Source of the DNA: Gammaproteobacteria bacterium
GTDB lineage: Bacteria; Pseudomonadota; Gammaproteobacteria; SZUA-229
Assembly: GCA_016744065.1 (NCBI GenBank)
Contig: JADGFA010000001.1
Location: 62,001 to 126,000 of the forward strand
DNA length: 64,000 nt
Direction of reading: 5' to 3'
Within the stretch, counting starts at the first letter, position 1. Each line of letters opens with the position of its first letter. Below the pieces are notes generated by a model. The model was not told the origin of the DNA, ran no database searches, and was given only the letters and a program-made list of their open reading frames with translations. The position numbers and the translations under genes are program-made. Below, piece by piece: positions 20,244 through 30,700 of this stretch.

Positions 20244-20270
20244 TTATCGGCTGACTATAAAATAACTTTA
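20244..20270 (-). promoter_or_regulatory. Sigma-28 (FliA) promoter of flgM
   Basis: Read on the minus strand: TAAA (20270-20267), 15 bases, GCCGATAA (20251-20244). The -10 element matches the FliA consensus at all eight bases and the spacing is exact. It drives flgM and flgN. Confidence 0.9.
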
Positions 20271-29360: not shown

Positions 29361-29400
29361 AAAGCAGCCTTAAGTTATAAAGTGTAAAACGGTGAACAGA

Positions 29401-30084
29401 ATGAAAAATGTACAATTACTAAAATACTCATTACTGGCTATAGCGGTTCAGTCTGTTTCTGGCTGCAATGTAAAAACACAGGAATTAGCAGATTTTGAAC
29501 CTATTGTAAGGCCTGTTGCTCCCAAACCGATGGTTTATAAAAGTGGCTCTTTATTTCAGGAGCGCAGTATTTCACTGTATGAAGATCCCAAGCCTTATCG
29601 TATTGGTGACATACTGACTATCATACTTAATGAGAAAACCAGTGCCAGTAAAAAGGCAGGTACGAGTACTAAAAAAGAAGATGAAATTGTTACGGCTAAT
29701 CCAACATTGTTTGGTGTACAACCAACATTTAAAGGTAATAATATTCTGGAATTTAGTGTTGCGCCAGAGCGTGAATTTGCTGGTGAAGCAGATAGTTCTC
29801 AGAGTAATAGCTTAACGGGTGAAATTACGGTAACCGTTGTGGATATTTTACCTAATGGTAATCTGGTTGTTCAGGGTGAAAAATGGTTTACCTTAAATCA
29901 GGGTAAAGAGTATATTCGCATTGCAGGTGTCGTAAGGCCTCAGGATGTATTTGCAGATAATACCCTGCCATCTTCTAAACTGGCAGATGCACAAATTGCG
30001 TATAGTGGTGAAGGTTTTCTGGCAGATGCCAATACTCAGGGCTGGTTTGGTCAGTTTATGAATGGTAAATGGTGGCCCTTCTAA
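29401..30084 (+). CDS. flgH: Flagellar L-ring lipoprotein FlgH
   Basis: An outer-membrane lipoprotein forming the L-ring. The ATG at 29401 is chosen (GGTGA upstream); a GTG nine bases earlier is the alternative. It has 227 residues with a lipoprotein signal peptide ending at VSGC (Cys21 lipidated). Family motifs follow: SLFQERSISLYEDPKPYRIGD, GDILTIILNE and the C-terminal SGEGFLADANTQGWFGQFMN. It is the last gene driven by the flgB promoter before an inverted dsrE-like gene. Confidence 0.96.
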   Translation: MKNVQLLKYSLLAIAVQSVSGCNVKTQELADFEPIVRPVAPKPMVYKSGSLFQERSISLYEDPKPYRIGDILTIILNEKTSASKKAGTSTKKEDEIVTANPTLFGVQPTFKGNNILEFSVAPEREFAGEADSSQSNSLTGEITVTVVDILPNGNLVVQGEKWFTLNQGKEYIRIAGVVRPQDVFADNTLPSSKLADAQIAYSGEGFLADANTQGWFGQFMNGKWWPF

Positions 30085-30126
30085 AATAGTTATATTTTAA
30101 AGCGCATAAAAAACTATTGGATATTG

Positions 30127-30549
30127 TTAAGGTTTAATATAGACATAACCATTTTGTTGTAACTCTACCAGTTTGGCCACACCGCCATCTTCAAGATAGT
30201 TTACGCCATCAAATAACTGTTTTTTCTTAATGCGTTTATTTTTTAAAGCAAAGGAGCAGATATTGACGGTTACATTCTGTTTAAGGATTTCATCTAACTG
30301 AGAGCGAGATGAAAATACAGTAGAAAATCGTGCAACGGCAGGCCCGTTAACCACTATGGTTATGATTGCATCCTTATCTAGCATTTTTCTCAAATTCTTT
30401 ACGTTGTTTACCAGCATTGTCATTTTTAATGGATTATTGATATGCAGGACAACTTTATCTGTTTGTTGTGCATAAGCCAGATGATGAGTAAACAAAGACA
30501 TTACAAGAAATAAGATTATGCTCTTAGTCTCAGGTATAAAATCTCGCAT
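30127..30549 (-). CDS. Periplasmic DsrE-like protein, inverted inside the flagellar cluster
   Basis: A 140-residue protein with a signal peptide (core IILFLVMSLFTHH, cleavage after LAYA), then a DsrE/DsrF-type fold. Evidence for the family is the pattern VVNGPAVARFS, then VTVNICSFALKN with its conserved Cys, and the C-terminal VAKLVELQQNGYVYIKP, which is the usual end of exported DsrE-family proteins. Cytoplasmic DsrE moves sulfur in sulfur oxidation; exported relatives have no settled role. Here one Cys is present at the expected place. It lies on the opposite strand between flgH and flgI, which are contiguous in most relatives, so it looks inserted or relocated. No flagellar role is known. 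Confidence 0.85.
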   Translation of the reverse strand: MRDFIPETKSIILFLVMSLFTHHLAYAQQTDKVVLHINNPLKMTMLVNNVKNLRKMLDKDAIITIVVNGPAVARFSTVFSSRSQLDEILKQNVTVNICSFALKNKRIKKKQLFDGVNYLEDGGVAKLVELQQNGYVYIKP

Positions 30550-30644
30550 ATTTATCCAGCCTATTGAAAGAGGAGATTTAAATAATAGTCTTATTTGGTT
30601 TAATATGCATTAAGTGTACTTCGTATTACTGAAAAACACGATAT

Positions 30645-30660
30645 TGGCCTTACTTTTGCA
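30645..30660 (+). promoter_or_regulatory. Sigma-54 promoter of flgI
   Basis: TGGCCTTACTTTTGCA, GG at 30646-30647 and GC at 30658-30659, 12 apart. The predicted start is near 30671, 30 bases before the flgI ATG. It restores expression downstream of the inverted dsrE-like gene. Confidence 0.85.
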
Positions 30661-30700
30661 GTGATACAGATAGAGAGTTTATTTATCTGGAGAAAAGTCA

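Follow-up and report, generated by a model that had tools for sequence, protein, structure and literature searches.

The closest described relatives of the protein discussed here are MTH1491 (PDB 1l1s) and ST0148 (PDB 2pd2), solved members of a DsrE-like type for which we take COG1416 to be the name. The protein is the 140-aa product of an ORF in a 64,000-nucleotide stretch of DNA (G000:C39:62001-126000, hereafter the window). The window belongs to a large flagellar/chemotaxis cluster, and the gammaproteobacterial genome around it is 99% complete. The match to the solved proteins covers the full domain, both in phmmer searches with the window protein (2pd2 at 2.8e-7 and 1l1s at 1.6e-5, residues 32-138 of 140) and with a 9-sequence profile (1l1s at 9.5e-23), i.e., there is full-domain sequence homology to the MTH1491/ST0148-type DsrE-like fold. 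The single cysteine of the window protein, C98, is invariant in all nine aligned homologues and shares its profile column with the cysteines of 1l1s and 2pd2, which puts it at the position of the conserved cysteine of DsrE-like sulfurtransferases. The C-terminal ends are also alike: that of the window protein is of the LQQxGYxYIKP type, with GYVYIKP where 1l1s has GWAYIRP. Two features set the window protein apart, namely a signal-like N-terminal extension of its own and a cysteine motif that reads CSFALKNK, whereas the others have C-x-N-[T/S].

Divergence is also visible with general family models. The Pfam DsrE model (PF02635) has a curated cut-off of 22.7 bits, and the window protein scores 18.2 bits and its three orthologues 13.7, 26.6 (G001), and 21.8, so one of the four passes. 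No NCBIfam model matches the window protein, the DsrE/F/H equivalogs included. Judged on its sequence, the ORF product belongs to the DsrE/COG1416-like family as a divergent member. An AlphaFold2 model, made from two sequences only, had a mean pLDDT of 37.0, too low for a fold comparison.

Two other kinds of DsrE-like protein bear comparison. Solo gammaproteobacterial proteins with a signal-like start (e.g., L089, L091, and L009) resemble the window protein in length (approximately 140-156 aa), in having the same cysteine, and in usually being encoded by a lone gene (by eye), but they share at most 36% identity with it, form a separate clade, and are encoded away from flagellar genes in the stretches read. 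The cytoplasmic DsrEFH/TusBCD proteins of the rDsr pathway share a Pfam superfamily with the window protein. They differ from it in that the host's copies lie in a dsr cluster, whereas the window protein is solo, has a signal-like N-terminus, and has no DsrEFH partners in the flagellar region. With no equivalog match and no partner-subunit gene adjoining, it does not qualify as a DsrEFH/TusBCD subunit.

All four orthologues begin with a hydrophobic stretch that ends in a small-residue/A-Q type site, and in the window protein the apparent signal peptide covers approximately residues 1-27 (both by eye). This start suggests that the protein is exported to the periplasm.

The flgH-flgI spacer and its sigma-54 box

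The original prediction placed a DsrE-family gene on the opposite strand between flgH and flgI, and the features of the region, with both neighbours identified by Pfam, bear this out:

29392-30084, + strand: flgH, L-ring lipoprotein, which closes the upstream flagellar unit (Pfam FlgH, 6.3e-58)
30085-30126: 42-nt gap separating the 3' ends of flgH and the DsrE-like ORF
30127-30549, - strand: DsrE/COG1416-like ORF, 140 aa, ATG start, between flgH and flgI
30550-30700: upstream region of 151 nt common to the DsrE-like ORF and flgI, compared with gene-less G002
30645-30659, + strand: sigma-54 type -24/-12 box, TGGC-N7-TTGC, 42-56 nt 5' of the flgI start codon
30701-31810, + strand: flgI, P-ring protein, which opens the downstream unit (Pfam FlgI, 5.7e-136)

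After flgI come flgJ, flgK, and a flagellin-domain gene in the same unit. Since flgH and the DsrE-like ORF are convergent, their 3' ends face each other across the 42-nt gap, where a scan found no G+C-rich terminator. Rfam had no match within the window. Compared with G002, the one genome of the genus that lacks the gene, the 151-nt upstream region is poorly conserved except for the sigma-54 core and the flgI leader.

It had also been proposed that the downstream operon has its own sigma-54 promoter, either recruited when the gene was inserted or ancestral and tolerant of the gene. The box is present, reads TGGCCTTACTTTTGC, and is conserved in relatives. We found flgI in 25 of 54 family genomes (one locus each), and at 14 of these loci TGGC-N7-TTGC starts 39-57 nt 5' of flgI; the other 11 are boxless, with flgH and flgI -7 to 62 nt apart. 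The box-bearing loci span six genera (g1, g3, g4, g6, g10, and g12) and are all 14 of the flgI loci in this six-genus subclade. Four of them contain the DsrE-like gene and ten do not show it. The whole gene-less flgH-flgI gap lies on one contig at six loci (G002, G009, G006, G018, G025, and G015; 198-377 nt), and the contig stops before reaching flgH at three box-bearing loci (G013, G028, and G023). A few further flgI genes in the class sample have such a box (L126, L127, L131, and L143); the majority have no box and a short gap.

These loci speak for the ancestral promoter. We reject recruitment by the insertion because the box stands before flgI in gene-less relatives, and because it is common to the subclade, G002 included, the flgI promoter is the older element and the gene the later arrival. 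The box is presumably an active promoter. Given that flgI has a promoter of its own, the flgH-flgI spacer was already a boundary between transcription units before the insertion. At this boundary, a hairpin and T-run follow flgH in the six loci with a complete gene-less gap (by eye). In a genome of a further relative (G007), napF, napD, and napA occupy the same boundary and read away from flgI (L169 1-2209, G007:C494); this nap locus corresponds to a single 8.6-kb contig in a fragmented assembly that yielded no flgH, the nap genes sitting where it would be expected.

Two side observations concern the boxes themselves. The window contains nine TGGC-N7-TTGC boxes, compared with a mean of 3.17 in shuffled sequence, and several lie 5' of flagellar genes. 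Short tandem repeats with units of approximately 7 bases stand just upstream of the flgI box at two contig ends (L171 and L172, from G028 and G023).

Distribution, probable gain, and retention of the gene

Orthologues are present in four of the five genomes of the genus (G000, G001, G003, and G004), each inverted between flgH and flgI, with identities of 71-78% in the search results. In the fifth, G002, flgH is followed by a 312-nt gap and flgI is preceded by the sigma-54 box, with no such gene present. The synteny comparison suggested with the original prediction thus placed orthologues only at flgH-flgI and always inverted, and searches of genomes from the family (54), the class (369), and the phylum (398), the last two being samples of larger groups, turned up no orthologue elsewhere and no copy at an unrelated locus. 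The best matches outside the genus were 31% identical (51 bits) in the family, 36% (54 bits) in the class, and 34% (54 bits) in the phylum, and the top identity of any match outside the genus was 39%, over 59 residues. Searching a second genome collection with the window protein, and a plasmid collection with tblastn, revealed no relative of the gene.

Outside the genus, no listed DsrE-like match lies near a listed flgI when the two tables are compared by eye, a comparison that leaves aside the weakest flgI places of the class (e.g., G037, G206, G160, G348, G320, and G413). Among the matches listed, the two occur on the same contig in G386, at a distance of 99 kb, and in G133, at distances of 0.5 and 2.0 Mb, and none are adjacent.

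A tree of flgH and flgI from 10 genomes groups the carriers as ((G000,G004),(G001,G003)), with G002 as their sister (support 99.8/100), G009 next, and other genera outside. Because the gene-less G002 is sister to the four carriers, one gain on the carrier branch explains the distribution and no loss is needed. A gain before the G002 split followed by loss in G002 is possible and would require one extra step. In a tree of 69 homologues (one short match was left out, and proteins of more than 300 aa were skipped during collection), the four orthologues group as a single clade (100/100) with a long stem branch (2.69), separate from the genus's other DsrE-like lineages, and the neighbours of this clade are long, weakly supported branches. 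The four copies, judged by these trees, have one origin. The 69-homologue tree also leads us to reject a recent duplication of one of the genus's other DsrE-like genes. Neither a donor nor a mobile-element scar was found at the insertion, where the flanking repeats are short and chance-like.

The gene is open in all four carrier species. Its dN/dS is 0.144, 0.105, and 0.164 in three of six species pairs, the other three giving no value because dS is saturated. A chance ORF is ruled out by these two results. For comparison, dN/dS is 0.043-0.088 for flgI and 0.037-0.067 for flgH (six pairs each), and protein identity among the four carriers is 68-89% for the DsrE-like protein and 85-98% for FlgH/FlgI. 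The substitution ratios show purifying selection on the DsrE-like gene, at a lower level of constraint than on flgH and flgI. At 33-37%, its G+C content lies below that of flgI in these genomes (43-46%), which fits either a foreign origin or weaker constraint. The faster evolution and low G+C are also what one would cite for a decaying or neutral passenger ORF on its way to loss. We consider this extremely unlikely, as the reading frame is intact in every carrier, the computable dN/dS values are only 0.11-0.16, and the cysteine and C-terminal motif have been retained.

We think it probable that the gene was gained once after the G002 split at an existing unit boundary, that its product has a periplasmic sulfur-binding role through Cys98, and that its location is incidental. 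The ancestor of the four carriers would have acquired a gene encoding a small, exported protein of the DsrE/COG1416-like kind, in reverse orientation and at a spacer that already separated two transcription units. Because flgI had a sigma-54 promoter of its own by then, both flagellar units would have stayed in working order. On this account, the DsrE-like gene is an ordinary lineage-specific insertion, i.e., a known kind of protein in an unusual but explicable place. It offers a clear, datable case of a foreign or divergent gene entering a conserved flagellar cluster and leaving it intact, and the entry point is where an internal sigma-54 promoter had already split the cluster.

Sulfur, signalling, and the flagellum

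A link between sulfur or redox state and P-ring assembly had been suggested for the gene. As an explanation, this would make it a flagellar accessory factor, with a periplasmic product that responds to sulfur or redox conditions by tuning motility or the assembly of the L and P rings, which would be why the gene is kept beside flgI. The protein would share a compartment with FlgH and FlgI, its gene is under purifying selection, and its position is the same in all four carriers; that the position itself matters could explain the last point. However, the four carriers represent one inherited insertion, so the fixed position does not by itself demonstrate a functional link and supplies no independent evidence of linkage. 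This is a caution against reading function from gene position alone.

Cysteines that could serve as thiol targets are scarce in the ring proteins. FlgI has none or has them in the signal region. Within the genus, FlgH has only that of its lipobox (two other genera have one more near the start), and neither FlgG nor FlgJ has any. The P-ring chaperone FlgA does have two (Cys 83 and 107) and is a possible target, but the pair is also present in gene-less G002. Among the 25 family flgI loci the DsrE-like gene is found in the four carriers only, and other flagellated genera lack it.

Promoters likewise do not tie the gene to the flagellar regulon. The window contains one exact sigma-28 consensus (20244-20270, - strand), just upstream of flgM, and neither a sigma-28 nor a sigma-54 site in the window is directed at the DsrE-like gene. 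In all four genomes, the best promoter-consensus matches upstream of the gene do not stand out from those in shuffled sequences. The one that comes closest, a partial sigma-54 site in G001 and G003, overlaps the coding start of flgI, and its score was attained in 22 and 28 of 200 shuffled sequences. The gene thus has no recognisable promoter, which is no proof of absence; it presumably has one of its own, and since no convincing candidate was found, independent expression is an assumption.

Absent from other flagellated genera and with no flagellar promoter facing it, the gene does not behave as one for flagellar structure or assembly. The suggested sulfur/redox link to P-ring assembly finds no support in the FlgI/FlgH cysteines, the promoters, or the flagellated genera without the gene, and little points to it beyond gene position. 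Among the papers that literature searches listed, no title or abstract start connects the P-ring or FlgI with a protein of the DsrE family (in passages of PMC11247099, the word 'dsre' stood for DsRed). We consider a flagellar accessory factor quite unlikely. Very unlikely is its more specific form, a lineage-specific accessory that would respond to the periplasmic level of sulfur or persulfide by adjusting motility or L/P-ring assembly (e.g., via the FlgA cysteine pair), thereby linking swimming to sulfur supply in a sulfur-oxidising bacterium. Should the gene prove to act on the flagellum after all, it would connect sulfur directly to motility.

Another locus of the host genome has a DsrE-like domain in a different setting: L157 3595-6918 (G000:C86) contains genes for an ECF sigma factor, an anti-sigma factor with a DsrE-like C-terminal half, a solo DsrE-like protein, and a Porin_O_P protein.

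By analogy with such an anti-sigma factor, the flgH-flgI protein might be a periplasmic ligand-binding or envelope-signalling partner instead of a sulfur carrier. The C-terminal half of the anti-sigma factor resembles the adjoining solo DsrE-like protein (BLASTP 1e-7), and the arrangement, with its ECF sigma and Porin_O_P neighbours, occurs in all five genomes of the genus. We nevertheless regard a signalling role as unlikely for the flgH-flgI protein, which is not close to the anti-sigma-locus clade in the 69-homologue tree and whose gene has no sigma or anti-sigma gene adjoining it.

Under the preferred explanation, a single gain with an incidental place among the flagellar genes, the protein would act in the periplasm and use Cys98 to carry sulfane sulfur or some comparable small sulfur species. 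Its kinship and conserved cysteine suggest that it binds sulfur there and acts in sulfur metabolism, perhaps in sulfur oxidation or detoxification in an rDsr-carrying bacterium. A sulfur-related periplasmic role is plausible for this host, in which dsrB adjoins three genes matching dsrE-, dsrF-, and dsrH-type equivalog models (contig C48). In the family, dsrB is present in 36 of 54 genomes, 32 of which are without the DsrE-like gene. Within the genus, the two coincide: four of the five genomes have both, and G002 (assembly 90% complete, 6% contamination) has neither, a coincidence that may be one event.
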